Origin: Liolophura sinensis
Taxonomy: Eukaryota > Mollusca > Polyplacophora > Chitonida > Chitonidae
DNA length: 64,000 nt
NCBI RefSeq assembly: GCF_032854445.1
Contig: NC_088295.1
Coordinates: 95,907,805-95,971,804 of the forward strand
Direction of reading: 5' to 3'
Below the pieces are notes generated by a model that searched no databases, was not told where the DNA came from, and was given only the letters and a program-made list of their open reading frames with translations. Position 1 is the first letter of the stretch. Every line of letters begins with the position of its first letter. Shown one piece after another: positions 683-55,300 of this stretch. Both the position numbers and the translations under genes were made by a program.

Positions 683-835
683 GGTTATCCCGTGCAGCAG
701 CTGATGGTAGATGCTGACAACCGAGTGGTAACCGTACAGAGGATTATCTCCCCTGATGAGCAAACTGTTACGCAGTCATCAATGTCTGTGAGGAGAGAAA
801 TGCCCGACGCTTCTCAAGCTCCCCTCATCGCAGTG
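683..835 (+). CDS. PRDM10: PRDM10 exon (N-terminal, first in window)
   Basis: Acceptor is attcag at 682; the frame reads [20 protein letters not shown] onward, phase 0 to 0, 51 codons. The donor chosen is GTG|gtaagt at 836. A second possible donor, TCT|gtgagg at 788, is also phase 0 and would shorten the exon to 683-787. The last 30 nt plus the donor closely match the unit of the 44 bp array that follows. The PRDM10 N-terminus is poorly conserved, so support comes from phase, splice sites and context. Confidence 0.65.
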
Positions 836-3800
836 GTAAGTCTTTGCTTGAAGCTCCCACCAGCATAGTGGTAGGTCTTTGCTTGATGCTTCACCAGGTC
901 CCCTCTTTGCTGTGGTAGGTTTTTGCTTGACGCCTCACAATGTCCCCTCAGCATAGTGGTAGGTTTTTGCTTGACGCGTCACAAGCTTCCCTCAGCACAG
1001 TGGTAGGTCTTTGCTTGACGCTTTACAAGCTCCCCTCAGCATATTGGCAGGTCTTTGCTTTATGCTTCACAATGTCCCCTCAGCATAGTGGTAGGTTTTT
1101 GCTTGACACTTTACAAGCTCCCTTTAACATAGTGGTAGGCTTTTGCTGGACGTTTCACAATGTCACCTCAACATGGTGGTAGGTTTTTGCTTGACGCTTC
1201 ACAAGCTCCCCTCGGTACAGTAGCAAAATGTTTGCTTGACGCTTCACAAGCTCCCCTCAGAACAATGGTAGGTCTGCTTAATGCTTCACCGGCTCCCTCC
1301 AGCATAGTGGTAAGTCTTTGGTTACGTTTTACAAGGTCCCCTCAGTATAGTGGTAGGATTTTGCTTGACTCTTCACAAGCTCTTTCAGCACAGTGGTAGG
1401 TTTTTGCTTTATGCTTCACAATGTCCCCTCAGCATAGTGGTAGGTCTTTGCTTGATGCTTCACAAGCTCCTCTCAGCATAGTGGTAGGTTTTTGCTTCAT
1501 GTTTCACAAGCTCTTTTCAGCACAGTGGTAGGATTTTGCTTTATGCTTCATAATGTCCCCTCAGCATAGTGGTAGGTCTTTGCTTGATGCTTCACAAGCT
1601 CCCGTCAGCATAGTGGTAGGTCATTGCTTGACGCTTTACAAGTTCCCCTCAGCATAGTGACAGGTCTTTGCTTGACGCTTTACAAGCTCCCCTCAGCATA
1701 GTGACAGGTCTTTGCTTGACGCTTTACAAGCTCCCCTCAGCATATTGGCAGGTCTTTGCTTTATGCTTCACAAACTCCCCTCAACATAGTGGTAGGTTTT
1801 TGCTTGACGCTTCACAATCTCCCCTCGGTACAGTGGCAAAATGTTTGCTTGACGCTTCACAAGCTCCCCTCAGCACAGTGGTAGGTCTTTGCTTGATGCT
1901 TTACAAGCTCCCCTCAGCATAGTGACAGGTCTTTGCTTGACGCTTTACAAGCTCCCCTCAGCATAGTGACAGGTCTTTCCTTGACGCTTTACAAGCTCCC
2001 TTCAGCATATTGGCAGGTCTTTGCTTTATGCTTCACAAACTCCCCTCAGCATAGTGGTAGGTTTTTGCTTGACACTTCACAATCTCCCCTCAGTACAGTG
2101 GCAAAATGTTTGCTTGACGCTTCACAAGCTCCCCTCAGAACAATGGTAGGTCTGCTTAATGCTTCACCGGCTCCCTCCAGCATAGTGGTAAGTCTTTGGT
2201 TACGTTTTACAAGGTCCCCTCAGTACAGTGGTAGGTTTTTGCTTGACTCTTCGCAAGCTCTTTCAGCACAGTGGTAGGTTTTTGCTTTATGCTTCACAAT
2301 GTCCCCTCAGCATAGCTTCACAAGCTCCTCTCAGCATAGTGGTAGGTTTTTGCTTCACGTTTCACAAGCTCTTTTCAGCACAGTGGTAGGATTTTGCTTT
2401 ATGCTTCACAAGCTCCCGTCAGCATAGTGGTAGGTCTTTCCTTGATGCCTCACGAGGTCTCACAGTGGCAAGTCTTTGCTTGACACTTCACAACCTCTCC
2501 TCAGCATAGTGGTAAGTCTTTGAGGATGCTTTACGAGGTCCCCTCATTGCAGTGACAGGTCTTTGCTTGACGCTTCACAAGCTCCCCTCAGCACAGTGGT
2601 AGGTCTTTGCTTGACGCTTCACAAGCTCCCCTCAGCATAGTGACAGGTCTTTGCTTGACGCTTTACAAGCTCCCCTAAGCATAGTGACAGGTCTTTCCTT
2701 GACGCCTCAGGAGGTCCCCTCATCACAGTGGCAAGTCTTTGCTTAACGCTTCACAAGCTCCCCTCAGCACAGTGGTAGGTCTTTGCTTGACGCTTTACAA
2801 GCTCCCCTCAGCATAGTGACAGGTCTTTGCTTGACGCTTTACAAGCTCCCCTCAGCATAGTGACAGGTCTCTCTTTGACGCTTTACAAGCTCCCTTCAGC
2901 ATATTGGCAGGTCTTTGCTTTATGCTTCACAAACTCCCCTCAGCATGGTGGTAGGTTTTTGCTTGACACTTCACAATCTCCCCTCAGTACAGTGGCAAAA
3001 TGTTTGCTTGACGCTTCACAAGCTCCCCTCAGAACAATGGTAGGTCTGCTTAATGCTTCACAGGCTCCCTCCAGCACAGTGGTAAGTCTTTGCTTACGTT
3101 TTACAAGGTCCCCTCAGTACAGTGGTAGGTTTTTGCTTTATGCTTCACAAACTCCCATCAGTAAAGTGGTAGGTGTTTGCTTGACGCTTCACAAGCTCCC
3201 CTCAGAACAGTGGCAAGTGACACTTTACAAGGTCCGTCAGCACGGTGGTAGATCTACTTGATGCTTCACAAGCTCCCCTCATCACAGTGGTAGGATTTTG
3301 CTTCACAATTCGCAAGGTCTCCTCAACATAGTGGTAGGATTTTGCTTGACGCTTCGCAAGGTCTCCTCATCACAGTGGTAGGTTTTTGCTTGACGCTTCA
3401 CAAGGTTCCCTCAGCACCATGGTAAGTTTTTGCTTGACACTTCACAAGCTCCCCTCGGCACAGTTGTAGGTTTTTGCTTGATGCTTCACAATGTCCCCTC
3501 AGCACAGTGGTAAGTTTTTGCTTGAGGCTTTACAAGCTCCCTCAGCACAGTGGTAGGTTTTTGCTTGACGTTTGACAAGCTCCCCTCAGCGCATGTATTG
3601 GCCGACACTGTATTTTCTGACACTGTGTTTGCCAATGCACCGTGTTTGCTGACCGTGTATTGGCTGACCCTGCATTTGCTTATCCTGTATTGGTGACCCT
3701 GTACTTGCTAACAGTGTATTTACTGACGCTGTGTTGGCTCACAATGTATTGACTGACAATGTATTTGCTGAACCTGTATTTGCGATACTGTATTAGTGGA

Positions 3801-6800
3801 CCCTGTCTTGGTGACCCTATATTTGCTAACCCTGTCTGAGTGACCCTGTATTTGCTGACGCTGGATTGGCTGACCGTGTATTTGCTGACATTGTATTTGG
3901 TAACCCTTTATTGGCTCACAATGTATTGACTGACCATGTATTTGCTGACCCTGTATTGGCTGACCTTGTATTTCTTATACCATACAGATACCCTCCCACA
4001 GCCAGGCTAACTTCCATGCCATGCCGTCTCAGTCGACCGCTATGCCAAAAACCTCTCTGGGGATGATTGTGTCTAGCTCACACGCCACCCACAGCAGTTT
4101 GGTCTCCTTCGGTTCCACGTCTGAGGTTAGCACAACGGCGGGATCTCCCAGTATGCACGCTGCTCACATGGACCACTCAGGGGAGGGTGACGCAGACCCA
4201 ACAGTCAGCTCCATCAGTACAGTATTCACAGGCTCAGACATGATGGAGACCGTACCACCCAAGGTAGGCAGCTGTGATGTAGGCAAGATACAACATGCTG
4301 TTTATGCAGCTGTAGTTTAGGTGAGATACAACGTGCTGTTCATGCCGACCATGAATTTTTGTGTAACGCTGTATGTTTATATCACTGGCCACAGATTTAT
4401 GGTAAGAAAAGACCTTGGGTGGTAGTCATGGCAGAAACTGTATTTCTTCTGTAGAGATAGCTGTAGAAATGTGCAGCAATGACATGGACACATTGCCAGA
4501 TTCCTCCAGGGCCTAATCCAGCCCTTCTCAGCGTCCGATTACCAGATGCTGCCCTTCCCTCTAAGTGCCCTTTGTGTCAAAAGGAAAAAAAAAAAACAGA
4601 AACAGCCTGAATTCATTATAAGACTTGAATTATTTACTTAGTCGCTAGGTTTTGACTAGTTGTTCGCCACAATAGTTTTGGCAAATACAATTTCTGTGTG
4701 GTGAAAGCATATTGATGTCCCTTCGCCACAGTGGCGAAAGCAGTGGATGCCTGTCAACTTCAGTTGTTTAGGTTTAAAGTTCGTTAATTTACTCAAATTT
4801 AATGTTGGATCCAGAATCAAGAAGGAATATTTGACTTCGGTGTGAAAGAACTTGGTTATGAAAACAACAAAGTTTTTAAAGACCATTTAACATTGGAAAT
4901 GTATGCCCTGAAGCAAGTGACGAAAATTGGACCCAGGATTATTCAGTTAGCATTCAGATTATGCGAACAACTTTTTAATGATGGCCTGGGGTAGCTATGA
5001 TACCTGTGATGATCAGATGCACATGTCATCCGGGATGGCAAAGTTCTCCACATATCAATAAATACAAGCCATCCTTTGACTGAATTTTTGGGCCAGATAC
5101 ATGTTGTGGTGCGCACGTGGGTTGGTGGTCAACCATAGGAATCGAGGCCCTTAAAAATGTATGAGAATCGAAATATTCAACAATGAGGTGCCAGTGTTTC
5201 GACCCCCTGCCCTTCTGAGGCCAGATTAGGCCCAGTCCTCCCATTCATATGTCTGGGTTTTGATGATGTAACATGTGAATGATGAGGTTACTGTTTCCGG
5301 ATAGAGCTTTGCATGATGATATAACAAGTTACAGTTACGGACTGAGGTTGAGGTGTGCAAGTTACATGTGGATGATCACCCAGTCGAGGCCGTCTTTTGT
5401 CATAGAGGTCGCAAAGCTACCGAGGTGACAAGATTACCAAGACTGGGTGATTATCTATCTTGGACACCAAAACCAAAAGCGGTAAGTGACTTACACAGTG
5501 GTTTTATTGTTTATCAAGAGTTAGTCGTAGTTGTTAACTATTTTACTTTTGACATCTGGTAATAGCTCTGCTATTTCACAGTTTTACCATACGTGGCCTA
5601 ATCCTTTAAGATATATTAAACAACCCTGTTGTATCTTGTTACATGCACCTGACCTTCTAACCTTCTAAGATTATCTATGCTTACTTGTTTACTTTCATAT
5701 TCTGTTGAAAAGGCGGCTTCAGTAGGCCCTGTGTTTCTTTATGGTTCGACTTCTATTATAAGCCACTGAGACTCGCAGGGTCTGGTTTGGAGAAGCTAAT
5801 AGCTTGACATTTTCAGCGTACCCACAGGAGTGACAGTGGCAGCGGGGAGCCTGACACCACCCAAGGGGACGGCGAGGACTTTCCTCCTCACAGAGGTGGG
5901 TGACCACAGCCGTGTCTTGTACATACATGCATGTATCATATTAGGCCTACTTCTTAAATGTTCAGCACTTTACTGTGCAGTAAATAAAACCGAATTTGTT
6001 CAGTTTGCCCATGGAACTATTACATACTCTTTATTCAGTCATATTATTGTTCAGTTTGCCCATGGAACTATTACATACTCTTTATTCAGTCATATTATTG
6101 TTCAGTTTGCCCATGGAACTATTACATACTCTTTATTCAGTCATATTATTGTTGAGTTTGCCCATGGAACTATTACATACGCTTTATTCAGTCATATTGA
6201 ATGCCATTATTTACTTTCTGTATTGGAAAAAGGTGCTTCCCATGTTTTTGCTCCGCTGTTGGATAATCATGTGGTTGTTATTCTAGTGCTTCAGTCTGGA
6301 CATTTACCAGATGTTGTTATTGTAGTGCCTCACTCGGGACATTTACCAGATGTTGTTATTGTAGTGCCTCACTCGGGACACTTACCAGATGAAAGTGATG
6401 AGACTGGGCTTCTTCACTCGACAGTGGTGGGTTCCACGGTCAAACACATCAGAGGATGTTATGGATGCCTCTCTTGATACGAGTCACTTGAGTCAGGAGT
6501 CTGTGGGCTCCAGCGGACTCACTTCGTCCAGCGACTCAGCCATGGACTCAGGACTTGATCGCACAGTGGACAGCAGCTCTGTGGGTCAGTGCTTCCATTT
6601 ATTTATTTCAGTTTTATGTCCAGAAGGCTCTGGGTACCCCTCTTTACAGTGCACACATGCACAAAGAAATCATAATTACATCTATATTCTAGACTTTACA
6701 ATTGCTTGTTGATCCTGCAACTGGCTATACAATTGCTTGTTGATTGCGCAACTGGCTATACAATTGCTTGTAGATCCCACAACTGACTTTACAATTGCTT

Positions 6801-12800: not shown

Positions 12801-15800
12801 GTGTAAATCCAGCATGTGTCTGTAATACTGTGGATGTGGTGTAAATCCAGGATGTGTCTGTAATACAGCAGATGTGGTGTAAATCCAGCATGTGTCTGTA
12901 ATACTGTGGATGTGGTGTAAATCCAGGATGTGTCTTATACTGCAGATGTGGTGTTTGTAAACTATAATAATTTTCAGAGTTGATGTATTTTGTGTACTAT
13001 TTTATCACCAGCTGGAAAAGGAAGGAGGAGATTATGGTTACTTCAACACGAGGGATGAGAATCTGTGTAACTGGATGATGTTTGTACGTCCAGCTGAGAA
13101 CTACGCTGAGCAGAACCTGGTGGCCTATCAGTATGGATATGACATCTTCTTCACCGTGACAAAAGCCATTGAGCCCAAGCAGGAGCTAAAGGTGTCTCCA
13201 TTTTTTGTCTTCTTATTCCTGGCGTTTGTTTTCCTGTGCAACATTCACCCTACTTTTCCTGTGCAACATTCACCCTACTTTTCCTGTGCAACATTCACCC
13301 TACTTTTCCTGTGCAACATTCACCCTACTTTTCCTGTGCAACATTCACCCTACTTTTCTAGTCTTAACATGGCTTCTTGTTCAACACAACTAGTAAATTA
13401 TTGTTGTCTTGCAGCTGTGTGACTTAAATACTGCCAATATAGCAGTAAAACCTAATTATTGATTCATTTTATACCTGATCTCTTTTTGGGCAAGGATTTA
13501 AAACCTTATCCAACATAGCTCTGTCTTACATGTGTTTTGTCACACCCATTGGATGAGTGGCAAGTGTGTGAATTAGTGTGTGAATTAGTGTGTTGCTGTG
13601 TTTTCAGGTCTGGTATGCTGCACACTATGCTGAAAGGCTGGGTGTCAACACCCTGCCTATTCTACAGGAGGACATGGAAGGTAAGGCTGATAGATGATGG
13701 AATGAAGGGTGACAGGGCTTGTATGGGGTTAATACATGGCTTGTATATGGCTTTTACAGGGCTGGTACGGGGTTTATACATGGCTTAAACAGGGCTTATA
13801 CGGGGTTTATACATGGCTTGTATATGGCTTATACAGGGCTTGTACAGGGTTTATACATGGCTTATACAGGGCTTGTACAGGATTTATACATGGCGTATAC
13901 AGGGCTTGTACATTGTTTATACATGGCTTATACAGGGCTTGTACAGGGTTTATACATGGCGTATACAGGGCTTGTACATTGTTTATACAGGGCTTGTATG
14001 GGGTTTATACATGGCTTATACAGAGCTTGTATGGGGTTTATACATGGCTTATACAGTGCTTGTACGGGGTTTATACATGGTTTATACAGGGCTTGTACAG
14101 GCTTTATACATGGCATATACAGGGCTTGTACATTGTTTATACATGGCTTATACAGGGCTTGTACAGGGTTTATACATGGCATATACAGGGCTTGTACATT
14201 GTTTATACATGGCGTATACAGGGCTTGTATGGGGTTTATACATGTGTTATACATGGTTTATACAGGGCTTGTACAGGGTTTATACATGGCTTATACAGGG
14301 TTTATACATGGCATACACAGGGCTTGTACATTGTTTATACATGGCGTATACAGGGCTTGTATGGGGTTTATACATGTGTTATACATGGTTTATACAGGGC
14401 TTGTACGGGGTTTATTCATGGCATATACAGGGCTTGCATGGGGTTTATACATGGCTTATACAGGGCTTATACATGGCATATACAGGGTTTACAAAGAGCT
14501 TGTACGGGGTTTATACAGGGCTTATACAGGGCTTTTACATGGCTTCTACATGGCATAAACAGGGATTGTATGGGGTTTATACATGATTTATACATGGCTT
14601 TTACTTGTGTTATACATGGCTTATTCAGGGTTTGTACAGGGTTTATACAGGGCTTATACATGACTTTTACAGGGTTTATACATGGGTTTTACATGGCTTA
14701 TAAAGTGATCCATACATCCAAGGTTAGGTACCATGTGTATGTTATGGTTAATTTTATTGGAAGACCTTTACTCAAGTGGTCACATAATCAGCTGGATGAC
14801 CTGCATGATCTAGCTTGTTACAATTCACCATTGTTGTCAGTTGACCAGGCTACCATACACGTGTGTCCTCTGGTTTTAGGCTGTAATCATTCTACTCTGA
14901 TTTTAGCTGACCCGGATGCCAAGTGATGTGCTGGTTTTAGGCTGTAATCATTCTGCTCTGATTTCAGCCGACCTGCATGCCAAGTGCTGGTTTTAGGCTG
15001 TAATCATTCTACCCTGATTTTAGCTGACCCAGATGCCAAGTGATGTGCTGGTTTTAGGCTGTAATCATTCTAATCTGATTTTAGTTGACCCAGATGCCAA
15101 GTGATGTGCTGGTTTTACGTTGTAATCATTCTACTCTGATTTTAGCTGACCCGGATGCCAAGTGGTGTGCTGGTTTTAGGCTGTAATCATTCTACTCTGA
15201 TTTTAGCTGACCTGGATGCCAAGTGATGTGCTGGTTTTAGGCTGTAATCATTCTACTCTGATTTTAGCTGACCCGGGTGCCAAGTGATGTGCTGGTTTTA
15301 GGCTGTAATCATTCTGCTCTGATTTCAGCCGACCTGCATGCCAAGTGCTGGTTTTAGGCTGTAATCATTCTACTCTGATTTTAGCTGACCCAGATGCCAA
15401 GTGATGTGCTGGTTTTAGGCTGTAATCATTCTAATCTGATTTTAGTTGACCCAGATGCCAAGTGATATGCTGGTTTTACGTAGTAATCATTCTACTCTGA
15501 TTTTAGTTGACCCGGATGCCGAGTGGTGTGCTGGTTTTAGGCTGTAATCATTCTACTCTGATTTTAGCAGACCCGTATGCCAAGTGGTGTGCTGGTTTTA
15601 GGCTGTAATCATTCTACTCTGGTTTTAGCTGACCTGGATGCCAAGTGATGTGCTGGTTTTAGGCTGTAATCATTCTACTCTGATTTTAAACTGACCTGGA
15701 TGCCAAGTGATATGCTGGTTTTAGGCTGTAATCATTCTACTCTGATTTTAGCTGACCCAGATGCGAAGTGGCCATGTTACGAGTGCCCTAAGAAGTTCCG

Positions 15801-18800
15801 TACGTCTGCTCAGCTACAAAACCATCTGGCGGAGCATGAGGAGGGTGGAACCGAGGGTGACCCGGATGAAGAGTATGACAGTAACGGTGTCAAGAAACCC
15901 AAACGTAAAGCCACACAACTCACAGCCTCTGGGGTGCCCAAGAAAAGGGGACGACCTGCCAAAACACTGAAGGTTTGTGCTACGTGCCATACAAAACACT
16001 GAAGGTTTGTGCTACGTGTCATACAAAACACTGGAGGTTTGTGCTGCGTGTTGTACAAAACACTGAAGGTTTGTGCTATGTGTCATACAAAACACTGAAG
16101 GTTTGTGCTATGTGTCATACAAAACACTGAAGGCTTGTGCTACGTGCCATACAAAACACTGGAGGTTTGTGCTAGTGTCATACAAAACACTGAAGGTTTG
16201 TGCTAGTGTCATACAAAACACTGAAGGATTGTGCTACGTGTCATACAAAACACTGAAGGTTTGTGCTACACGTCGTACAGAACACTGAAGGTTTGTTCTA
16301 CGTGTCATACAAAACACTGGAGGTTTGTGCTAGTGTCATACAAAACACTGAAGGTTTGTTCCAAGTGTCATACAAAACCCCTAAAGTTTGTGCTATGTGT
16401 CATACAAAACACTGAAGGTTTGTGCTACGTGTCATACAAAACACTGAAGGTTTGAGCTATGTGTCATACAAAACACTGAAGGTTTGTGCTATGTGTCGTA
16501 CAAAACACTGAAGGTTAGTGCTACCTGTCTTAAAAAAACACTGGAGGTTTGTGCTACGTGTCATACAAAACACTGAATGTTTGTGCTAGTGTAGTACAAA
16601 ACATTGACGGTTTGTGCTACGTGTCATACAAAACACTGAAGGTTTGTGCTACGTGTCATACAAAACACTGAAGGTTTGTGTTAGTGTAGTACAAAACATT
16701 GAAGGTTTGTGCTACGTGTCATACAAAACACTGGAGGTTTGTGCTATGTGTCATACAAAGCACTGAAGGTTTGTTCTAGTGTAGTACAAAACATTGAAGG
16801 TTTGTTCTAGTGTCGTACAAAACACTGGAGGTTTGTGCTATGTGTCATACAAAACACTGCAGGATTGTGTTCTGTGTCATACAAAACACTGAAGGATTGT
16901 GCTACGTGTCATACAAAACACTGAAGGTTTGTGCTCCATGTCATACAAAACACTGAAGGTTTGTGCTACATGTCATACAGAACACTGAAGGTTTGTTCTA
17001 CGTGTCATACAAAACACTGGAGGTTTGTGCTAGTGTCATACAAAACACTGAAGGTTTGTGCTATGTGTCGTACAAAACTCTGAAGGTTTGTGCTACGTTT
17101 CATACAAAACACTGAAGGTTTGTGCTTCGTGCTATACAAAACACTGAAGGTTTGTGCTAGGTGTCGTACCAAACACTGAAGGTTTGTGCTGCATGTCATA
17201 CAAAGTACTGAAGGTTTGTGCTCTGTGTCATACAAAACACTGAAGGTTTGTGCTGCATGTCATACAAAGTACTGAAGGTTTGTGCTCTGTGTCATACAAA
17301 ACACTGAAGGTTTGTGCTCCATGTCATACAAAAACACTGAAGGTTTGTGCTCCATGTCATACAAAACACTGAAGGTTTGTGCTATGTGTCATACAAAACA
17401 CTGAAGGATTGTGCTATGTGTCATACAAAACACTGAAGGTTAGTGCTACATGTCGTACAAAACACTGAAGGTTAGTGCTACATGTCGTACAAAACACTGA
17501 AGGTTAGTGCTACATGTCGTACAAAACACTGAAGGTTAGTGCTACATGTCATACAAAACACTGAAGGTTTGTGCTACATGTCGTACAAAACACTGAAGGT
17601 TTGTGCTACGTGTCGTACAAAACACTGAAGGTTTGTGCTACGTGTCATACAAAAACACTGAAGGATTGTGCTACGTGTCATACAAAAACACTGAAGGTTT
17701 GTGCTCTGTGTCATACAAAAACACTGAAGGTTTGTGTTATGTGTCATACAAAACACTGAAGGTTTGTGCTGCGTGTCATACAAAATACTGAAGGTTAGTG
17801 CTACATGTCGTACAAAATACTGAAGGTTTGTGCTACATGTCGTACAAAACACTGAAGGTTTGTGCTCCATGTCATACAAAACACTGAAGATTAGTGCTAC
17901 ATGTCGTACAAAACACTGAAGGTTTGTGCTCCATGTCATACAAAACACTGAAGGTTAGTGCTACATGTCGTACAAAACACTGAAGGTTTGTGCTACGTGT
18001 CATACAAAACACTGAAGGTTTGTGCTACATGTCGTACAAAACACTGAAGGTTAGTGCTACATGTCGTACAAAACACTGAAGGTTTGTGCTACGTGTTATA
18101 CAAAACACTGAAGGTTAGTGCTACGTGTCATACAAAACACTGGAGGTTTGTGCTACGTGTCATACAAAACACTGAAGGTTTGTGCTCTGTGTCATACAAA
18201 AACACTGAAGGCTTGTGCTCCATGTCATACAAAAACACTGAAGGTTTGTGCTACGTGTTATACAAAACACTGAAGGTTTGTGCTATGTGTCATACACAAC
18301 ACTGAAGGTTTGTGCTACGTGTCATACAAAACACTGAAGGTTTGTGCTACGTGTCATACAAAACACTGAAGGTTTGTGCTACGTGTCATACAGAACACTG
18401 AAGGTTTGTGCTCCATGTCATACAAAACACTGAAGGTTTGTTCTACGTGTCATACAAAATACTGAAGGTTTGTGCTCCATGTCGTACAAAATACTGAAGG
18501 TTTGTGCTACATGTCGTACAAAACACTGAAGGTTAGTGCTACATGTCGTACAAAACACTGAAGGTTTGTGCTACATGTCGTACAAAACACTGAAGGTCTG
18601 TGCTACATGTCGTACAAAACACTGAAGGTTAGTGCTACATGTCGTACAAAACACTGAAGGTTTGTGCTACGTGTCATACAAAAACACTGAAGGTTTGTGC
18701 TACGTGTCATACAAAACACTGAAGGTTTGTGCTACATGCCATACAAAACACTGAAGGTTAGTGCTACATGTCATACAAAAACACTGAAGGTTTGTGCTAC

Positions 18801-21389
18801 GTGTTATACAAAACACTGGAGGTTAGTGCTACGTGTTATACAAAACACTGGAGGTTTGTGCTACGTGTTATACAAAAACACTGAAGGTTTGTGCTACGTG
18901 TTATACAAACAGGATTACCTTGTAAGATTATAAATTGTATGCAGTGCTCTTTGACTGCCACACTTTTTACTGAGAAAACATTCGAAAGCGTTAGTGTTTT
19001 AATTATAAATATCTGAGGTTGAAACTTAACTTTCGTCACTAAGGATGCTGCAGCACTGGGTATATTGAAATAAGCCAATTCATTTGAGGGTTTCTTCTGG
19101 GACTGTTTTCACTTTGCTTATATGATACATTGTGTTTATCCTGCAGGAAAACGGAGAAACTAAAGTTTTCCAGAGCTGGAAGAAGAGGACAACCAATCTG
19201 TATCTGACAAAGTGAGCTCACACTTTGATTAACTGAAAGATGTCTTGTACTAATATTTTGAAGTCTGGTAAATAATTTCATCTTATTTCAAACTTTCATT
19301 TCTTCTAATGAAAGCGTAACTTCTCCCTGTGCTCTGTGGATGTAAGTTTAAGGATCTTGTGACACTTGATTTCAGAACACTGAAGAAATACCAGAAGAGG
19401 CATGATCCTGAGATGATCAAGAGAACTCTTAAGTCTCTCTACAAACGGAAGGGCAAGGAGACAGGTGGGAACGAGTGGGTGTGTACTCACTGTGACCTCA
19501 CATTTGACAACTCCAGCCTGCTCAACCTGCACACGCTGACCCACGCAGCCGAGGATGTGGGGCTGGAAGGCACAGAAAAGACTGTTTCCATATCCACTGG
19601 TGAAGATGGAGAGCTGATCATTACGGGCAGTGTGCTGGAGGGTGCAGGGGATGCCAGCAGCGAGGGTAACCTGGTCAGCCTACAGAGTTCTCCCCCTGCC
19701 TGCCCAGTCTGCCACAAGGAGTTCACCTCCAAGCGAGATCTCATTGAGCATGCGAGCGACCACGCCATGACTCGGAAAAGCTGCGTGCGAGCAAACAAGT
19801 GCTCACTGTGTTGGAAGGGCTTCAGCACCCAGGAGAGGCTGCAGAAGCACATGCTATGTCACGGAGATGAAGAGACCAAACCTCTTCAGTGTACTGTCTG
19901 CTTCAAGCGCTTCATGAACAACTCCGCGCTATCCTGTCACATGAAGACCCACAGCAACAGGAAGTTCCACGAGTGCCCCATCTGCCGCATGGGCTTTGAC
20001 CAATCCCTGGTGCTCAAGGACCATGTGAAGCAGCATGAGACCAATGGGGTGTATATATGTCCTATTTGCCAGCGGCAGTTTGACGACTTCGTCCTCATCA
20101 AAAAGCACATTCGCGGATTCCACTCGGAAAAACGCTACCCTTGTCCTGACTGTGACAAAATATTCCCGCGCTCAGACAAGCTGAAGCTGCACATGCTGAA
20201 GCACTCCGCCCACAGGGACTTCATGTGCGAGACGTGCGGGCGGCAGTTCAAACGCAAAGACAAGCTCAAGGAACACATGAAGAGGATGCACTCTATAGAG
20301 CGGGAACAGAGAATCCGCGAGAAGTCAGAGCGCAGACCCAGCCTCAAGCGCTTCATTCCCAAGGTGTCGCCCACAGACTATCACCGCTTCATCTACAAAT
20401 GTCACACTTGTCTACTGGGGTTCAAGAGGAGAGGTATGCTGGTGAACCACCTGGCTAAGCGTCATCCAGATATCAAACCTGACCAAGTGCCTGAGCTCAA
20501 TCTGCCCATCCTAAAGACACAGAGAGACTACTACTGCCAGTACTGCGACAAGGTCTACAAGTCTAGCTCCAAGAGGAAGGCCCACATCATCAAGAACCAC
20601 CCAGGGGCAGATCTGCCTCTGAGCAGCAGGACAAAGACGCTGATCCCAGACATCCCAGGCCTGCCCAACCCCACATACTCCCAGACTGTGGGCAGCATCA
20701 CCACCATGCCCCACTCCTGTGACTTCTGCCACAAGCAGTATGCCAGCAAGGCCAAATTGATGCAGCATCAGAGGAAGAAGCACTCCGAGCTTGTGCCCGC
20801 TGTGTCGGATCGCAGGCTTAAGGATGAGATGGAGGGGGAGGAGGAGTGCCTGACGGAAGAGCCAAAGACTCATGAGATCCATGTATATGAGACAGTGCAG
20901 GCCGCAGCCTTAGCCCAGGCTTCCACAGAGATCCCCACAGCCGACCTGCTCACCCAGGCCATGAGTGAGCTCACCCAGAGCCTGAGTGAGTACCGTAACC
21001 CCACCGGAGAGTATCGCCTCACTCCGGGCACCCACACTACCCTGGTGCAGGCCGCCACTCACATCCCCATCCAACACTCCACAATTGAGCTGAGCCACTT
21101 GGGACAGGCTCTTGGGCAGACCCAGTACACCACTCAAGGCCACCTTGCCACAGTCCAGGCTGCCCCCTCCCCCGGACAGCCCCAGGCCCCTGCTGCAGTA
21201 CCTGTCACTATACAGACCATACCTGTGTCCGAAGTGGTGAATGGTCAGACAATGTCTGTCAGTGGACAGACAGTGGCGGTCAGCGGAGGTACCACCATTC
21301 AGGTGCCTGTGTCCACTCTGGGCACCATTCAGGGACAGACCTACTTACAGACTCAACGCACCTGGGCAAACTACCCAAATTACCGCTAA
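683..21389 (+). CDS. PRDM10: PRDM10 orthologue, PR/SET domain zinc-finger transcription factor (13 exons, 5' end outside window)
   Basis: Nuclear DNA-binding regulator of the PRDM family. Join of exons 683-835, 3988-4263, 5817-5895, 6453-6584, 8768-9162, 10741-10837, 11274-11414, 11650-11762, 13012-13191, 13608-13680, 15752-15972, 19147-19211 and 19376-21389; every junction is GT-AG and phases agree, giving 3,939 nt (1,312 aa plus TAA). Chain order: Ser/Thr/Gln/His-rich N-terminus (about 1-345), CEEC motif and PR/SET domain (about 379-546, with [20 protein letters not shown]), finger 1 (WPCYEC), basic linker KKRGRPAK, fingers 2-12 (about 678-1112), and a tail with [18 protein letters not shown]. 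The PR-domain core, the finger order and the DLLTQAM motif match vertebrate PRDM10 (about 1,150 aa), not PRDM15. PRDM PR domains often lack methyltransferase activity; no catalytic claim is made. The first exon has no initiator Met in frame, so the start lies upstream. Identification is firm; N-terminal exons are less certain. Confidence 0.93.
806..3590. repeat. Minisatellite, about 44 bp unit, beginning at an exon donor
   Basis: About 62 copies of a unit of the form gacgcttcacaagctcccct + cagcacagtggtaggtcttt + gctt. The first copy overlaps the proposed 3' end of the PRDM10 exon 683-835. Most copies keep gtaggt or gtaagt, a donor-like hexamer. Apparent open frames of 66-144 codons through it are an effect of the repeat. 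Confidence 0.95.
3595..3975. repeat. Degenerate short tandem repeat before a PRDM10 exon
   Basis: Imperfect units of about 21-30 bp on the theme tgtatttgctgaccctgtat and ttggctgac. It ends just before the acceptor at 3987. Confidence 0.85.
3988..4263 (+). CDS. PRDM10: PRDM10 exon (Ser/Thr/Met-rich, N-terminal)
   Basis: Acceptor ccatacag ends at 3987 and donor AAG|gtaggc follows 4263. It is 276 nt, phase 0 to 0, encoding a Ser/His/Met-rich segment that starts [15 protein letters not shown] and ends METVPPK. No domain is recognised. It is open throughout in the frame required by its neighbours. Confidence 0.7.
4264..5816 (+). other. PRDM10 intron, unique sequence
   Basis: No array, gene or recognised mobile element was found in these 1.55 kb. 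One A-run lies near 4590. Small open frames here have no recognisable content. Confidence 0.6.
5817..5895 (+). CDS. PRDM10: PRDM10 small exon (acidic linker)
   Basis: Acceptor cattttcag ends at 5816; donor CAGAG|gtgggt. It has 79 nt, entering in phase 0 and leaving in phase 1. It encodes [20 protein letters not shown] followed by DFPPHR, a hydrophilic acidic linker. Support is from splice consensus, codon character and phase fit; no homology is recognised. Confidence 0.6.
5998..6201. repeat. Four tandem copies of a 51 bp unit
   Basis: The unit starts gttcagtttgcccatggaac and repeats at exact 51 bp spacing (5998, 6049, 6100, 6151). The length is a multiple of three, so several frames stay open; the predicted peptide is a by-product. 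Confidence 0.95.
6272..6388. repeat. Three copies of a 39 bp unit ending in an acceptor-like site
   Basis: Copies end in ttaccag at 6310, 6349 and 6388, each followed by atg. The last ttaccag|atgaaagtgatg is a candidate acceptor of the next PRDM10 exon. Confidence 0.9.
6453..6584 (+). CDS. PRDM10: PRDM10 exon (Ser/Asp-rich), 5' boundary uncertain
   Basis: The frame [20 protein letters not shown] and onward is open to donor GTGG|gtcagt at 6585. With acceptor acatcag at 6452 it enters and leaves in phase 1, matching both neighbours. That acceptor has little pyrimidine tract. A better-looking acceptor, cacttaccag at 6388, gives [13 protein letters not shown] in phase 1 but then reaches a stop near 6476. 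Either 6453 is correct, or a one-base difference lies between 6427 and 6453. The 39 bp repeat at 6280-6388 carries the same ttaccag|atg acceptor three times. Confidence 0.55.
6695..7085. repeat. Minisatellite, about 31 bp unit
   Basis: About twelve copies on acaattgcttgttgatcctg plus caactggctat, alternating with a variant gtagatcccacaactgactt. Lies in a PRDM10 intron. Confidence 0.93.
7395..8690. repeat. Complex minisatellite (cactggtcatcagtcc family)
   Basis: Units of about 29-60 bp combining cactggtcatcagtccatcc, atgacactgatgatcatgcc and, later, aacctgacactgggcaacag. Several sub-families follow each other. It ends about 75 bp before the acceptor at 8767. The core ggtcatcag also occurs at the exon start ag|gtcatcatcag. 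Confidence 0.9.
8768..9162 (+). CDS. PRDM10: PRDM10 exon (His/Ser/Gln-rich low complexity)
   Basis: Acceptor ctctgtccag ends at 8767; donor AGAAGG|gtgagc. It is 395 nt, in phase 1 and out phase 0. It encodes [19 protein letters not shown] and a Gln/Asn-rich stretch ending in [15 protein letters not shown], a short acidic-basic segment. This resembles the disordered N-terminal half of PRDM10 proteins. No folded domain is visible. Confidence 0.8.
9590..10710. repeat. Minisatellite, 32 bp unit (GT-rich)
   Basis: About 34 copies on catggtgtgtgggcatgtgt plus caggtgtgtgta. The 32 bp period shifts frame by unit and no stop occurs in several frames, giving apparent Cys/Val-rich proteins up to 259 aa on + and His/Thr-rich ones on -. 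None is a credible gene. Confidence 0.95.
10741..10837 (+). CDS. PRDM10: PRDM10 exon (pre-PR region)
   Basis: Acceptor ttgattgacag ends at 10740; donor ATCT|gtaagc. Its 97 nt encode [20 protein letters not shown] then [12 protein letters not shown], with the split Trp codon completed by the next exon to give EEIWCEEC. That is the position of the DLWCEEC motif before the PR domain in vertebrate PRDM10. Confidence 0.88.
11274..11414 (+). CDS. PRDM10: PRDM10 exon (Cys motif and start of PR/SET domain)
   Basis: Acceptor tacttgcag ends at 11273; donor CCTG|gtaaga. Its 141 nt are phase 1 to 1. It encodes [20 protein letters not shown] then [20 protein letters not shown]. The CxxC...C...H motif and the PIP.K.VLSRA.SSLP run align with the beginning of the PRDM10 PR domain. 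Confidence 0.93.
11650..11762 (+). CDS. PRDM10: PRDM10 exon (PR/SET domain, middle)
   Basis: Acceptor gttttttcag ends at 11649; donor CTGCGG|gtaggt. Its 113 nt are in phase 1 and out phase 0. It encodes [20 protein letters not shown] then [17 protein letters not shown]. The GVF.KR.LPK.TQFGP core is diagnostic of the PR domain. Confidence 0.95.
11821..12076 (+). mobile_element. tRNA-derived SINE, family 1
   Basis: Starts ggttggttagcgcactggca (A-box-like), has agttcaagtccagc (B-box-like) at about 11886, then a body with ggaaggtctgccagcaactt, cataatgctgaccgccgtcg and a tail ending caaataaataaataaa. It interrupts the start of the 38 bp array in this PRDM10 intron. Copies of the same family lie at 31775-32010, 34374-34495 and 55233-55506. 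Confidence 0.88.
12077..12955. repeat. Minisatellite, 38 bp unit
   Basis: About 23 copies of tctgtaatactgtggatgtg plus gtgtaaatccaggatgtg. A first copy at about 11790-11820 lies left of the SINE, so the element landed in the array or its precursor. Long minus-strand frames (up to 196 codons) follow from the unit. Confidence 0.95.
13012..13191 (+). CDS. PRDM10: PRDM10 exon (PR/SET domain core)
   Basis: Acceptor tatcaccag ends at 13011; donor CTAAAG|gtgtct. It is 180 nt, phase 0 to 0. It contains [20 protein letters not shown] and VEPKQEL-type IEPKQELK, the most conserved PR-domain core, almost identical in pattern to vertebrate PRDM10. Confidence 0.97.
13236..13358. repeat. Five copies of a 25 bp unit
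   Basis: Nearly perfect copies of ttcctgtgcaacattcaccc plus tactt, shortly after the PR-domain exon donor at 13192. High identity suggests recent expansion. Confidence 0.95.
13608..13680 (+). CDS. PRDM10: PRDM10 exon (end of PR/SET domain)
   Basis: Acceptor gtgttttcag ends at 13607; donor GGAAG|gtaagg. Its 73 nt leave in phase 1. It encodes [20 protein letters not shown] then EDME, the VWYA..YAE end of the PR domain. Confidence 0.95.
13710..14702. repeat. Minisatellite, 33 bp unit
   Basis: About 30 copies on tacatggcttatacagggct plus tgtacagggttta. Because 33 is a multiple of three, three plus frames stay open, giving apparent proteins up to 396 aa with an 11-residue period. These have no domain and lie in a PRDM10 intron. 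Confidence 0.95.
14870..15751. repeat. 61 bp tandem array carrying a copied PRDM10 splice acceptor
   Basis: About fourteen copies of a unit reading tgtgctggttttaggctgta, atcattctactctgatttta, gctgacccagatgccaagtg. The last copy is the real one: ctgattttag|CTGACCCAGATGCGAAGTGG opens the exon at 15752. Each unit thus holds pyrimidine tract, AG and 19 exon-like bases. Confidence 0.96.
15752..15972 (+). CDS. PRDM10: PRDM10 exon (zinc finger 1 and basic linker)
   Basis: Acceptor ctgattttag ends at 15751; donor CTGAAG|gtttgt. Its 221 nt run from phase 1 in to phase 0 out. It encodes [20 protein letters not shown] (C2H2 finger) then a basic [16 protein letters not shown]-hook-like stretch. Both ends are repeated in the flanking introns: the acceptor with 19 exon bases in the 61 bp array upstream, the donor with the last 9 exon bases in the 32 bp array downstream. 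Confidence 0.96.
15961..18915. repeat. 32 bp tandem array carrying a copied PRDM10 splice donor
   Basis: About 92 copies of acactgaaggtttgtgctac plus gtgtcatacaaa. The first copy spans the real exon end, AAAACACTGAAG|gtttgt at 15972/15973. Units vary mainly at gtgtcat/catgtcg and by one extra A. A minority carry ctgaaggttagt instead of ctgaaggtttgt. Confidence 0.97.
19147..19211 (+). CDS. PRDM10: PRDM10 small exon
   Basis: Acceptor atcctgcag ends at 19146; donor ACAAA|gtgagc. Its 65 nt encode [20 protein letters not shown] then T plus a split Lys. ENGE follows the GRP.K linker in vertebrate PRDM10 too, which supports both this exon and the upstream donor. Confidence 0.85.
19376..21389 (+). 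CDS. PRDM10: PRDM10 last exon (zinc fingers 2-12 and C-terminal tail)
   Basis: Acceptor cttgatttcag ends at 19375; the frame runs to TAA at 21387-21389. Eleven C2H2 fingers can be read, starting at WVCTHC, PACPVC, NKCSLC, LQCTVC, HECPIC, YICPIC, YPCPDC, FMCETC, YKCHTC, YYCQYC and HSCDFC. Linkers FHSEK and [15 protein letters not shown] match PRDM10 closely. The tail has [18 protein letters not shown] and a Gln/Thr/Val-rich region resembling an activation domain. The open frame extends upstream to 19329 but that part is intron. The C-terminus is shorter than in vertebrates, where sequence continues; no further exon was found downstream. The stop lies inside the first unit of a tandem array. 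Confidence 0.96.
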
Positions 21390-22095
21390 GTGTGGCTAAC
21401 TGTGACGTGTGTGTGACAATGCAGACAAACTACCCAAATCACCACTACATGTGGCTAACTGTGACGTGTGTGTGACAATGCACTTAGACAAACTACCCAG
21501 ATCACCACTACATGTGGCGAACTGTGACGTGTGTGTGACAATGCACTTAGACAAACTACCCAAATCACCACTACATGTGGCTAACTGTGATGTATGTGTG
21601 ACAATGAACTTAGACAAACTACCCAAATCACCTCTAGGTGTGGTGAACTGTGACGTGTGTGTGACAATGCACTTAGACAAACTACCCAAATCACCACTAC
21701 ATGTGGCTAACTGTGACGTTTGTGTGACAGAATGCGCTTAGACAAACTACCCAAATCACCACTACGTGGCTAACTGTGACGTGTGTGTGACAGAATGCGC
21801 TTAGACAAACTACCCAAATCACCACTAGATGTGGCTAACTGTGATATGTGTGTGACCCATGAAAATAACCTGGACAAACTCCCAAAACTGTGACGTATGT
21901 GACCCATGAACCATTATGGACGAACTCTTAAACTGACGTGTGTGGCCCATAAACCGACCTGGACAAACTCCCCAAACTGTGACATGTGTGACTCATGAAC
22001 CAACCTGGACAATTTGCCCAAACTGTGACATGTGTGACCCATTAACCAACCTGGACAAACTCAACAAACTGTTACCCATGAACCAACCTGGACAA
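21365..22095. repeat. Tandem array of about 60 bp units starting at the PRDM10 stop codon
   Basis: Units read caaactacccaaatcaccac, tacatgtggctaactgtgac, gtgtgtgtgacaatgcactt. The first unit includes the last codons and TAA of PRDM10 (gcaaactacccaaattaccg then ctaa). About eight good copies are followed by shorter decayed ones built on cctggacaaactccc and tgtgacccatgaacc. Confidence 0.93.
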
Positions 22096-23640: not shown

Positions 23641-23644
23641 TTAC

Positions 23645-24120
23645 AGAGTGTCATTAGTCACTAGCTGATATTGAGATTCTGTGATGTACTTGATCACTTA
23701 CCTGCGAAGAGTCATTATTGACTGGCTGATATTGAGATTCTGTGGTATACTTGATCACTTACCTACACACTGTCATTATTGACTGACTGATATTGAGATT
23801 CTGTGGTATACTTGATCACTTACCTACACACTGTCATTATTGACTGACTGATATTGAGATTCTGTGGTATACTTGATCACTTACCTACACACTGTCATTA
23901 TTGACTGACTGATATTGAGATTCTGTGGTATACTTGATCACTTACCGACACACTGTCATTATTGACTGGCTGATATTGAGATTCTGTGGTATACTTGATC
24001 ACTTACCTACACACTGTCATTATTGACTGACTGATATTGAGATTCTGTGATGTACTTGCTCACTTACGTGCAAAGTGTCATTAGTGATTGGCTGAAATTG
24101 GGATTCTGTGATGTACTTTT
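23645..24120. repeat. Tandem array, 61 bp unit (8 copies)
   Basis: Units read ttacctacacactgtcatta, ttgactgactgatattgaga, ttctgtggtatacttgatca. Central copies are nearly identical and outer ones diverged, the usual result of unequal exchange. Confidence 0.95.
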
Positions 24121-49300: not shown

Positions 49301-52300
49301 TTCTGGCTTGTGTAAATGTTGGGGATACATGCTGACAATGGCCTGTGTTTCTGGCCTGTGTGAATGTTGGTGATACATGTTGACAATATCCCTGTTTCTG
49401 GCTTGTGTAAATGTTGGGGATACATGTTGACAATGGCCCTGTGTTTCTGGTGTGTGTAAATGTTGGTGGTACATGTTGACAATGTCCCTGTGTTTCTGGC
49501 TTGTGTAAATGTTGGTGGTACATTTTGACAATTTCCCTGTGTTTCTGGCTTGTGTAAATGTTGGTGATACATGTTGACAATATCCCTGTGTTTCTGGCTT
49601 GTGTAAATGTTGGTGACACATGTTGACAATATCCCTGTGTTTCTGGCTTGTGTAAATGTTCGCGATACATGTTGACAACGTCCCTGTGTTTCTGGCTTGT
49701 GTGAATGTTGGTGGTACATGTTGGCAATGTCCCTGTGTTTGTGGCCTGTGTAAATGTTGGTGATACATGTTGACAACATCCCTGTGTCTCTGGCTTGTGT
49801 GTGTTTCAGGCTCCAGACCTCATTATCCATCACCCAGACAGTGTTTTAGATGCGATGGGCGACTGGTGCAAGGAGCACCATGGGAAGGTCTGTCAAACTA
49901 CTGTGTATCATGGTATAATGCCAGCGTCAAATTATACTTTAGGGACCGTCCCCATAAATCGTTTGCATTTGTTTGGTTTGTTTTTCTCCGAAAAACCAGA
50001 CTCGATCTACACCTTTCGTTTGCTTATTCGGTTGAAACGATTTAAGGGAATCAAAGGAATCCCCTGTATCGGTCGACCATAGTGATACATTTAAACATCG
50101 TTGTGTTAACTGGCGATTGGTAAGGAGGTTTCATCGCTAATATGCACAAGAAACAAATCCAAAGAAACAACAACATTGGTAGCACTTGTGAAACCTTTCA
50201 AATAAAAAGCTCAAGTTTCGCTCTTACATATTTTCACGATATTCCCGAGTCTACCGATACCCAGTATACAGGCCTAAATATGTGGTCGGACATATATGCC
50301 AGAAACTCATACAGGCCTATCCTACACCGTACAAGTACACATGTGCCAGGACATGCCAGTTCCTGCAGGTGTCGTTCCAGCCAACGCTGAGTTCTGACAA
50401 CTATGTGGTGCGATGGGTGTTTGACCAATCAGTGCTTGAGATCTAATAAAGGATATTCAATCATTTCATATGAACTGTAAGTTATATTCAGCCTTGGGAC
50501 TCGGGGTGTGACTGGGGCCGTCATGCAGGTGTTGAGAGGTGTTGATTCCTGCTGATCAAGCCCTGTTTACCGTTGATTAAAAGTTTTAATTGTCATATAC
50601 AACCAGGTGTCAGCATCTACTCACACCGAGTTTTGGTGTAATAAAATGTGCATATTTCTTTATTATAGTAGGCTATCCTTCATTCACAAACATAAGTAAG
50701 CCTACCAGCAGGCGTACAGACGATTATGGAAAGTTTAAAAATCTCCGCAGGATACATACAATTTGTCAACTTCAGCTTTGTCTGAATTCTCAAATAATTT
50801 TAATAATGCATTTTGTTTTGTATTTGTTATCTGCTGTTAATTTCTAAAGTAAACGTCTGTACCAGTTGTCACCAGCCTGATGTAATCCTTATAAACATTG
50901 TATAGTTTGTGTCGCTATCGTTCAACTGAAACCTTTGTCAAGAAGATAGTTCAGTTCAATCCAAGTTTGAGTTAAAGCTTTCAGGGGATGGGAGAAGAGG
51001 TAAGGTATTTACTGGAAATGGACTTTACTCCACGTCATACTGCATCGTTCGTATCTTCGAGCATATCTTTAGGATAATTTAGTATATATAAATATGCATA
51101 TTGATTATTAGGTTCTTTGCAATTCTAAATTTACTGCAGACATTATTAGGACAGGAAGTCATTTTGTGTGAGAAATTGAGGGATAGCTTCCAAATCCTCA
51201 CACCTAAAAGGGATGCAGGTGCCACATGAAATGTACGTGGTTTGTGTGTGATGGATGACAGGTATGCTCACATTTTCCCTCTACAGATGTCAAGCAAGGC
51301 CTGGTGGGGAATCAGGAAATAAGGCCTTTAATCTTTTCAATTAGGTTGAACCACTCAAACTTTGTTGTCAACTGAGCAAACATTGTTTATGCTTTCTGTC
51401 ACACTACTTATAGCCTTTCATCAAATACCTGCCACCCTACCCAGATAAATTATCCCAACATAGCTTGATAACAGTGGGCTTTGAAATAATTGTGACAAAA
51501 GTGTACACTGTACATGAATACAAATACTCCTGTAAATAAATTAGAAACTATCTTTCTTGACTTCTGTTTGTTTTTGTAAAGTGGTTTGTAAAGTTAAATA
51601 ATGTTCAGCGAGTTGATGTCCTCTCGATGAGCCTCCCCACCCTCCCTACCTTTGAGAATGGTCTGTCAGATTGGTGTCGTTCTCCCACCAAGGTAGACGC
51701 ATGGCCAGAAAAGGGAAACCACTTGTGTTTTACCCTCGCGGGCATTTTTCAAAAGCTTTATTCACATGAAAGGCAGCATTACTCGTTGACGAAACCGCAA
51801 TTTATCGACTTTCAATCATACAAGAGAGGCTATGGAGACAAGTGGTCGGTAAATTCGAGACCTGATGGGTGGAGTAACGAAAAGGTGAGAAAGCTAAATC
51901 TAAGAAGAAAAAAACGAAAATGATTCTTATAATAATTTTTGGGTATTAAATTTACTGCGTTAACGTGTCGTATAGAAAAGGCTCCAAAAGCAACCATTTA
52001 CATTGTTTGTACAGCTAGGTATCCTGACAGTTCTGATCAGTGAAGCGTGTCGTTGTTGTAGTCGACATTCCCTGCTGAGCTAGTGGGACTACTTTCGCAA
52101 GGCCTGCTCCCTCTGGCTGTTTCCAATATTATCGGCTCTAAGGGAAAAAACCCAACGAACTCGACTCTCATTAATTGAGTGTTCGTTCTTTTCATTCGTT
52201 TTTACTGAATCCGAAGCAAACGATTTATGGGGACGGGCCTGTAAATAAAATAGTTCCTGTGGTGTTAATTGAGGCCATATACGGTGTTGTATAGGTGTAC

Positions 52301-55300
52301 TATGGCACAACTCCTTCCTGTAATTCACATTCCTGTGTTGTCGCTAGTATCATGGTAATTAGCCATTTAGTGGGCTCACCTGGTGTAGGCAAAATGTCGG
52401 AATGACTGCAGATCTCAGGGTGCTGTGTTTGATGGATGCCAGTGGTAGGTAACGCATTTTCCAACCACTGGGCTTAACTTGGAAACATTTTTTCACTGCG
52501 TGGTTTTCTCAGCACACATTGACCTTGCCTGCACTGTTTACAATAAACCTAACAATGGAAGGTGTCTGCCTGTTACACCATTCACGAGTGCCTATGCAAA
52601 TTACTAGCTGCACGTACCTCTACACCTTTGCTAACACTACTGGGTGGAGCTACACAACGTTCTGTTTCATTTACTTGGAGTAGTGCCAGAGTTTTAGTGC
52701 CAACACGCACCTCAGGCACTTGTCTCCCGTCTCCTGCGAGAGTACGAGACCAACACAAATATGTGCACTGAAATTTAGGTGGCCTCATCTTCATTCCTTG
52801 GGAAAATCATCGCCTCTTGTTAAAACGAAACCTATATCTGTCGTGATGGCTGTGGTGAGTGTAAAGTGTGAGTCTTAGATACACCCTAAGAATTCCTTCG
52901 TCGGCATATGACTGAAAAATTGTTGAGCATGACGTTAAACCCCAAGCACTCATTCACTCACTCACTCTTTTCCTTTGACCAATCTGGCTTCACAGGCATT
53001 TGAGTTTCTGCTTTTTGTTTCTTCTTTCCCTTTGACCAATCTGGCCCCAGGAACAGTTGACAGTCCTGAATGTGGCCAGCCTGGGCTAACTTAAGTATTT
53101 GTGTTTCTGCTCTCACTTTGGCCAGTCGTCGTCATATGACTGAAAAATTGTTGAGTACTGCTCTCACTTTGGCCAGTCTGGGCTGACTCAGGTATTTGTG
53201 TTTCTGCTCTCACTTTGGCTAGTCTGGGCTGACTCAGGTATTTGTGTTTCTGCCCTCACTTTCACCAGTCTAGGCTGACTTAAGTATTTGTGTTTCTGTT
53301 CTCACTTAGGTCAGTCTGGGCTACTTAGATATTTGTGTTTCTGCCCTCACTTAGGTCAATCTGGGCTACTTAGATATTTGTGTTTCTGCCCTCACTTTGG
53401 CCAATCTGGGCTGACTTAAGTATTTGTGTTTCTGCTCTCACTTTTATCAGTCTGGGCTGACAGAAGCGGTAAGGCAGAGTAATATCAGTCTAACCAGTGC
53501 TGAGGATCAGATGGTGAAGTTTGTAACAGAGCATGTACCCAAAGGAAGCTGCCCCCTAGCTGGCAACTCCATCCATGTCGACAAAGAGTTCCTGAACCGA
53601 TACATGCCACGGTTCATGAGCCACCTCCACTACAGGATTGTTGACGTGAGCACATTGAAGGAACTCTGCAGGTAAATCTGGTCTATTCTAGCCTCTTAAT
53701 GGTAAGAGGGAACTCTGCAGGTAAATCTGGTCTATTCTAGGCTCACAGGGGTAAGGGGCGGGTCATGAAATGTGTCAGGAGGAACATGATTTTTGAGGGT
53801 TTATGGACAACAATCAGCTACACTTAAACCACATGATGCACATAAGTGATGAGAAAAAGTTTTGCCTTACTTCACTTCTAGAAGTTACTTACTTAATCAC
53901 CTATAGTAAAACTGGTATAAGTGTGCATGGGTCTTAAGTAAGGTTTATGGAAGTGGGTGTAAAGAGAACCGAAAATTGTCAAAGTTTTATTAATACCTAA
54001 TTTATCGCTATGGATGGTAAAAGAAGAAAAAACGAGTGTAGTTTAGTGAAAAAGAGAATATAATCCTCAAATCTGATATTCATTTACAACTTCCTAAATG
54101 AGAAAAGGGACTTCCCCAAGACACCAGTTTCCAAAACAACCATTTCTTACACTGGATATGCTGTCCACAACCATCAACACTGATTCACACAGGACACGCT
54201 GTACACACAACCATTAACACCAATTCACACAAGAAATACTGTACACACAACCATCAACACTGATTCACACAGGAAACACTGTACACACAACCATTAACAC
54301 TGATTCACACAAGAAATACTGTACACGCAACCATTAACACCGATTCACACAAGAAATACTGTACACGCAACCATCAACACTGATTCACACAGGAAACACT
54401 GTACACACAACCATTAACAGTGATTCACACAGGAAATACTGTACACACAACCATTAACACGGATTCACACTGGAAGTACTGAACAGGCAAGCATAAACAC
54501 TGATTCGCACAAGAAATACTGTACACAACCATCAACACTGATTCACACAGGAAACACTGTACATACAACCATTAACACTGATTCACACGGGAAACGCTGT
54601 ACACAACCATCAACACTGATTCACACAGGAAACACTATACACAACCATCAACACTTATTCACACAGGAAACGCTGTACACACAACCGTTAACACTGATTC
54701 ACAAAGGAAACACTGTACACACAACCATCAACACTGATTCACACAGGAAACACTGTACATACAACCATTAACACTGATTCACACGGGAAACGCTGTACAC
54801 AACCATCAACACTGATTCACACAGGAAACACTATACACAACCATCAACACTTATTCACACAGGAAACACTGTACACACAACCATTAACAGTGATTCACAC
54901 AGGAAACACTGTACACACAACCATTAACACGGATTCACACAGGAAACACTGTACACACAACCATTAACACGGATTCACACAGGAAACCTAATTCAGATAA
55001 TTATTGTGATGTTTGTTCTGGTTGAGTGTAGCAGAAAAGCTATTTGTGTTGGCAGACGCTGGTACCCTGATGTGTATTTACGTTGTCCTCCCAAAGCCCT
55101 CAGCCACAGGTTTGTTGATTTTTGTTCTGCTCTCAGTCTGTCCACAAAAAAGTGGTTAATCTGTGTGTACACACTTTGATATGGCACAATACCGGGTTAG
55201 GAAGAATCAGGAAGTTTTGTAAAGGATGAAGATTTTTTTTTTTTTTTTTTTTTTTGATTGGTGTTTTACGCCGCACTCAAGAATATTTCACTTATACGAC

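Follow-up and report, generated by a model that had tools for sequence, protein, structure and literature searches.

How do tandem repeats in introns come to carry the ends of neighbouring exons? The question is raised by a 64,000-nt stretch of the genome of the chiton Liolophura sinensis (RefSeq assembly GCF_032854445.1, contig NC_088295.1, positions 95,907,805 to 95,971,804; hereafter, the window), in which our gene models place PRDM10 upstream and REXO2 downstream of it. A first-pass annotation, made from the sequence alone, had noticed that the intronic repeat units beside both ends of a PRDM10 exon (15752–15972) and a REXO2 exon (53451–53671) contain exon bases joined to the splice site, and had described the PRDM10 exon at 683–835 and the PRDM10 stop codon as similar. 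It had proposed that local duplications may be tolerated best when they copy a whole splice site, and that introns would grow outward from such junctions. Units that straddle exon boundaries in chiton DNA are confirmed as an observation at all of these places. Probably, they are boundary-spanning minisatellites of the kind described as mirages in amphioxus, which arose by ordinary duplication and expansion and need no preference for splice sites.

Tandem Repeats Finder (TRF) returned 107 rows for the window. We tested 37 boundaries, comprising 35 splice junctions and 2 stop codons, with a probe of 30 nt of exon and 20 nt of flank, which was aligned both to the 580 nt of flank that follow and to 40 shuffled versions of them. 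Both stop probes were placed 2 nt past the stop codon, and the 25 'exon' nucleotides of the PRDM10 probe are 23 coding nucleotides plus 2. Six of the 37 boundaries adjoin tandem repeats whose unit joins 11–30 nt of exon to the boundary, with alignment scores of 24–37 versus shuffled maxima of 12–16. Five of them are splice junctions (5/35), namely the donor at 835, both ends of 15752–15972 and both ends of 53451–53671; the sixth is the PRDM10 stop codon. The same six passed when the test was repeated with 1500-nt flanks and 100 shuffles. The remaining 31 boundaries scored 14 or less and failed, including the 5895 donor (14 versus 11) and the 6453 acceptor (13 versus 12), at which small excesses over the shuffled maximum in the 580-nt test did not reach the margin required in the 1500-nt test. 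Control 50-nt probes placed 25, 40 and 60 nt inside exons, with exons too short for an interior probe omitted, gave 0/29, 0/23 and 0/21 positives. Chance, which the first-pass annotation had named as a possible source of the shared bases, is rejected by the shuffles and these controls. The match behind the score of 14 at the 5895 donor is diverged and partial, and it lies at approximately 6409–6437, shortly before the next exon.

The six arrays are as follows.

836..3590, + strand: array of 44-bp units, about 63 copies (TRF rows 832–897, 851–2315 and 2315–3590)
14870..15770, + strand: array of 61-bp units, about 15 copies (TRF; boundary score 37 versus maximum 13)
15960..18909, + strand: array of 32-bp units, 92 copies (TRF; boundary score 31 versus maximum 12)
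21367..21856, + strand: array of 63-bp units across the PRDM10 stop codon, about 8 copies (TRF; boundary score 37 versus maximum 16)
53073..53461, + strand: array of 46-bp units, about 8 copies (TRF; boundary score 24 versus maximum 15)
53660..53755, + strand: tandem duplication of a 49-bp unit, 2.0 copies, 89% match (TRF; boundary score 33 versus maximum 14)

The 44-bp unit comprises about 30 nt of exon end (806–835) and 14 nt of donor-side intron; the 835 donor scored 36 versus a null maximum of 13, and 40 versus 14 in the 1500-nt test. The 61-bp unit carries the first 19 nt of the exon along with AG and a pyrimidine-rich stretch, and its array overlaps exon 15752–15972 by those 19 nt. At the 15972 donor, the 32-bp unit joins 13 nt of exon end to the donor and intron. 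The 63-bp unit contains 23 nt of coding sequence and the sequence downstream of the stop codon. In REXO2, the 46-bp unit joins the acceptor side to the first 11 nt of the exon (53451), and the 49-bp unit, the simplest stage, holds 12 nt of exon end (53671) and the donor. The copy numbers of 2, about 8, 15, 63 and 92 make a series, not one lineage.

The boundaries come from the following models. PRDM10 was modelled as 13 exons spanning 683–21389, with exon 4 at 6453–6584; the last exon starts at 19376, its coding end is at 21389, and the stop codon was read directly in the sequence. Homology, frame and consensus support the predicted PRDM10 junctions, among which the donors at 835 and 15972 are the least conserved. 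No record named Liolophura PRDM10 appeared among the 120 matches listed of 839 and the 120 of 490, many of which are unnamed. The stretch 19320–21389 is only 97% identical to one unnamed protein, P0002, which would therefore come from a different individual or a close relative. REXO2 was modelled as six exons (31196–31375, 37072–37155, 49810–49887, 53451–53671, 55056–55109 and 55778–55844). From an internal methionine, 207 residues of this model are 100% identical to the record oligoribonuclease, mitochondrial-like isoform X1 of Liolophura sinensis; the REXO2 junctions are fixed by this identity to a protein record, which runs across both junctions of 53451–53671. In the isoform X2 record of this species, precisely the 26 residues of exon 49810–49887 are missing; a 1.4-kb array of 49-bp units (48397–49800) ends 9 nt before the acceptor of that exon and does not cross the junction. 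Rfam and tRNA scans of the window gave no matches. The exons at which the arrays lie are listed below.

683..835, + strand: first PRDM10 exon of the window, E1 (alignment to Haliotis PRDM10)
15752..15972, + strand: PRDM10 exon E11, with arrays at both ends (homology and frame)
19376..21389, + strand: last PRDM10 exon, with the stop codon at 21387–21389 (frame and homology)
53451..53671, + strand: REXO2 exon X4, with arrays at both ends (identity to the Liolophura sinensis oligoribonuclease X1 record and match to a solved oligoribonuclease, mitochondrial)

At the five splice junctions, most further copies keep their GT or AG: at 70% identity, 39/53 at 835, 13/13 at 15752, 83/91 at 15972, 4/6 at 53451 and 1/1 at 53671. 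A second analysis with a looser threshold finds a few more copies (at 62% identity, AG is kept in 13/14 further copies of the 15752 array). Sites were scored with matrices derived from the remaining junctions of the window (14 donors and 16 acceptors). The score of the 15972 donor is equalled by 57 of its 83 canonical copies and exceeded by 12; for the 15752 acceptor, 5 of 13 are equal and 2 higher, for the 835 donor, 8 of 39 are equal and 1 is higher, and the single copy of the 53671 donor is equal. All canonical decoys that we found introduce a stop codon in frame (39/39, 83/83, 13/13, 4/4 and 1/1 at 835, 15972, 15752, 53451 and 53671), and splicing at either copy, as the first-pass annotation envisaged, would therefore yield no usable product. 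The mean conservation of the GT or AG columns stands at the 46th, 52nd and 59th percentiles of the other columns at 15752, 15972 and 53451. Under the looser threshold, GT or AG is kept about equally in the nearer and farther halves of the three large arrays (835, 19/29 versus 20/29; 15752, 6/7 versus 7/7; 15972, 40/45 versus 43/46), and strong selection against decoys is not seen there in retention by distance. From these features the decoys look mostly neutral, and we infer that the working site is the copy continuous with the exon, presumably marked by its position beside it. The 15972 donor among its 83 canonical copies offers a natural test of how the spliceosome chooses between sites of similar strength.

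We propose that such arrays would begin when a tandem duplication of 32–63 bp happens to fall across an exon boundary. Function would be kept by the copy that stays joined to the exon, which would leave the duplication nearly neutral. Slippage or unequal exchange would then multiply the copies lying on the noncoding side, whose numbers here range from 2 (53660) to 92 (15960), and the remaining copies would persist as mostly neutral decoys. All six arrays extend into the noncoding side. The array across the stop codon has no splice site and therefore fits a plain boundary duplication rather than a splice-specific rule; with one of the six boundaries being a stop codon, splice-site copying does not hold as the general reason for tolerance.

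This account takes the exon as the source of the repeated bases. At 53451 the repeated exon bases (11 nt) cover the codons of SGL plus part of that of T; at 53671 they (12 nt) cover those of ELC plus parts of those of K and R. Both SGLT and KELC match the solved protein named oligoribonuclease, mitochondrial, which we take to be human, and in an alignment of REXO2 to six other species SGLT is present in 6/6 and KELC in 5/6 (zebrafish has KELS); orthologous exon ends of this kind are seen, at the protein level, for REXO2 only. The PRDM10 exon end encodes NYPNYR followed by the stop codon, which the array consensus lacks, and a W and final (Y/F)R at the PRDM10 C-terminus are found in Haliotis, Lottia and Aplysia (3/4 named molluscs) and are absent in Batillaria. 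At 15752, both of the two differences between the exon and the exon part of the array consensus are synonymous, by inspection. Judged by coding conservation, these comparisons show the exon to be the source at both REXO2 ends and at the PRDM10 stop codon, and it would also be the source at the 835 and 15972 donors. The reverse order, in which the repeats are older and supplied the exon ends by boundary sliding or exonisation, draws on the facts that shared sequence alone gives no direction and that conservation of the exon ends is poor at 835 and 15972 in the homologue alignment. It is rejected for both REXO2 ends and for the stop codon on account of the conserved SGLT, KELC and PRDM10 C-terminus, and we consider it very improbable overall. 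Intron gain by tandem duplication was also considered and rejected. The opposite intron ends, compared with the whole array, score 11, 8, 11, 7 and 5 at 835, 15752, 15972, 53451 and 53671 (null maxima of 14, 13, 15, 12 and 11), whereas the introns' own ends score 40, 37, 31, 24 and 33 in the same test; the introns were therefore not newly made from the array. The least credible reading is that the resemblance is due to chance or to faulty assembly. Assembling long arrays is difficult, and the copy numbers given here come from the assembly alone; yet the scores lie far above shuffles and exon-interior controls, the repeat copies differ among themselves, and the published Liolophura sinensis assembly, if the window belongs to it, was built from HiFi reads according to the accessible part of its report (PMC11068029). 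A function of the arrays in the splicing or regulation of PRDM10 or REXO2 is improbable too, if somewhat less so than a repeats-first origin. In its favour, the REXO2 exon missing from one isoform record has its acceptor close to a 1.4-kb array, but that array stops short of the junction, GT and AG columns are not conserved above other columns, and arrays crowd the introns in general.

Whether junctions are preferred was judged from placement. We hand-merged the TRF rows into 26 intronic arrays, entering the blocks of a 47-bp family at 37436–40068 and 42813–46938 as two. Omitted were array 1–641, the intron of which is cut by the window edge; the non-intronic arrays (21367–22072, 23635–30502, 55983–58175 and 58843–63984); a TAA run (35231–35255); a short row (22213–22249); two rows in coding sequence; and rows within arrays already counted. 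The 26 arrays occupy 13/17 introns and 25,712/40,733 intron bases (63%). Introns did grow here in the way that the first-pass annotation described, with the five junction-seeded arrays accounting for 7,036/40,733 intron bases (17%). In the null model, one seed unit per array was placed at random in introns, and a crossing required at least 8 exon bases. With present-day intron lengths, 5/26 arrays cross a junction versus 0.74 expected (P 0.0006). Because introns would have been shorter before array growth, each array was also collapsed to one unit, and the expectation then rises to 2.55 (P = 0.085). Under this collapsed null, P is 0.12, 0.086 and 0.061 when the overlap must reach 6, 8 and 10 exon nt, respectively, and 0.25, 0.20 and 0.16 when the two-copy pair at 53671 is also dropped. 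Dropping intron 836–3987 leaves 4 versus 1.86 (P = 0.10). By gene, 3 versus 2.11 arrays cross in PRDM10 (P = 0.35) and 2 versus 0.43 in REXO2 (P = 0.065).

The present-length excess, the REXO2 figure and the post hoc count of crossing plus nearby arrays given below favour the rival proposal, in which a duplication that copies a whole splice site is at an advantage, or is tolerated better, compared with other intronic duplications, so that arrays start preferentially at junctions and introns lengthen outward from there. The collapsed-intron result, the PRDM10 value, the sensitivity to single arrays and the stop-codon array speak against it, and we regard it as unlikely. The window itself neither shows nor excludes preferential junction seeding. 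No depletion is seen, and crossing duplications seem to be tolerated about as well as intronic ones. The placement needs no splice-site preference, because introns would have been short before array growth and the arrays are dense. The first-pass interpretation as splice-junction duplications stands in part: units straddle junctions, the exon is the origin wherever direction can be assessed, and introns grew, whereas preferential seeding (P = 0.085) is not shown. The contrast between the naive and corrected P values means that junction enrichment needs testing against pre-array intron length.

Several results weigh against ordinary duplication with neutral decoys. The 53451 acceptor outscores all 4 of its canonical copies, its two nearest copies lack AG, and AG is kept in 1/3 copies in the nearer half of the array versus 4/4 in the farther half. 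The GT columns at 835 are less conserved than most (17th percentile). The patterns at 53451 and 835 hint at some selection against decoys. If the 4 arrays that end no more than 15 nt from a junction are added to the crossing arrays, the count is 9/26 versus 5.14, for which P = 0.029 even with collapsed introns, although the 15-nt limit was set post hoc; P = 0.085 is itself no clean null. Moreover, we infer which splice sites are in use. A doubtful extension would be that, in chitons, boundary duplications are seeded above chance and form a main route of intron growth, with a large share of introns carrying dozens of neutral decoys and the exon-attached copy being chosen by position and not by local strength.

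Other repeats in the window were also noted. Between the two 47-bp family blocks lies approximately 2.7 kb of other sequence (40069–42812), perhaps an inserted element, which contains a small 53-bp array (40482–40679). The only two TRF rows wholly inside PRDM10 coding sequence (20948–20990 and 21242–21287) share a period of 21 bp, which is divisible by three. The accessible part of the Liolophura assembly report lists 0.08% 'other (simple repeat, microsatellite, RNA)' and 14.04% unclassified in its repeat catalogue (PMC11068029); arrays like those filling the introns of the window may sit in the unclassified share.

Repeat units across an exon–intron boundary, which the first-pass annotation did not know as a class, have in fact been described as mirages. 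In the accessible parts of the amphioxus reports, they are tandem repeats spanning the 5′ and 3′ exon–intron boundaries of Adh3 and the globins BflGb6 and BflGb9 (PMC3087553, through which Canestro 2002 is cited) and occur also in troponin C and PGBD5 (PMC3902484). Their units measure 10–72 bp in Adh3 and 150–160 bp in the globins (PMC3087553); many but not all copies keep AG or GT, and regular splicing is reported (PMC3087553, PMC3902484). The chiton units likewise span the exon–intron boundary, with sizes of 44, 61, 32, 46 and 49 bp, and most copies, not all, keep AG or GT. Unlike the amphioxus mirages, the chiton case is in a mollusc, reaches 92 copies, affects both ends of one exon in two genes and includes one array across a stop codon; it is known here from one sequence. 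A 31-bp variable number tandem repeat at exon 13–intron 13 of human CBS is described in the accessible part of another report (PMC1395315). Like the chiton arrays, it is a tandem repeat at an exon–intron boundary; unlike them, it is human and a single locus. It has fewer copies than the chiton arrays, and each copy presumably repeats the donor site. According to the accessible part of a further study, duplicated human genes may acquire new introns through variable internal repeats located at such a boundary (Genome Biol 10:R137, PMC2812944). Intron creation by tandem duplication shares with our case that a duplication at an exon–intron boundary can change gene structure, but the chiton arrays repeat one end of an existing intron. 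Rogers 1989, Zhuo 2007 and Gao and Lynch 2009 reportedly describe intron creation from tandem arrays or internal duplication. Among the entries listed from the open literature, searched mainly by titles and the starts of abstracts, no boundary-spanning array in molluscs was found; the accessible parts of papers on earthworm metallothionein and Conus describe intronic repeats and no boundary-spanning case. The class is thus already known, and the mollusc adds a new phylum and an unusual density. The window extends a phenomenon of lancelets and a human gene to a mollusc and holds, side by side, stages from a single duplication to 92 copies.

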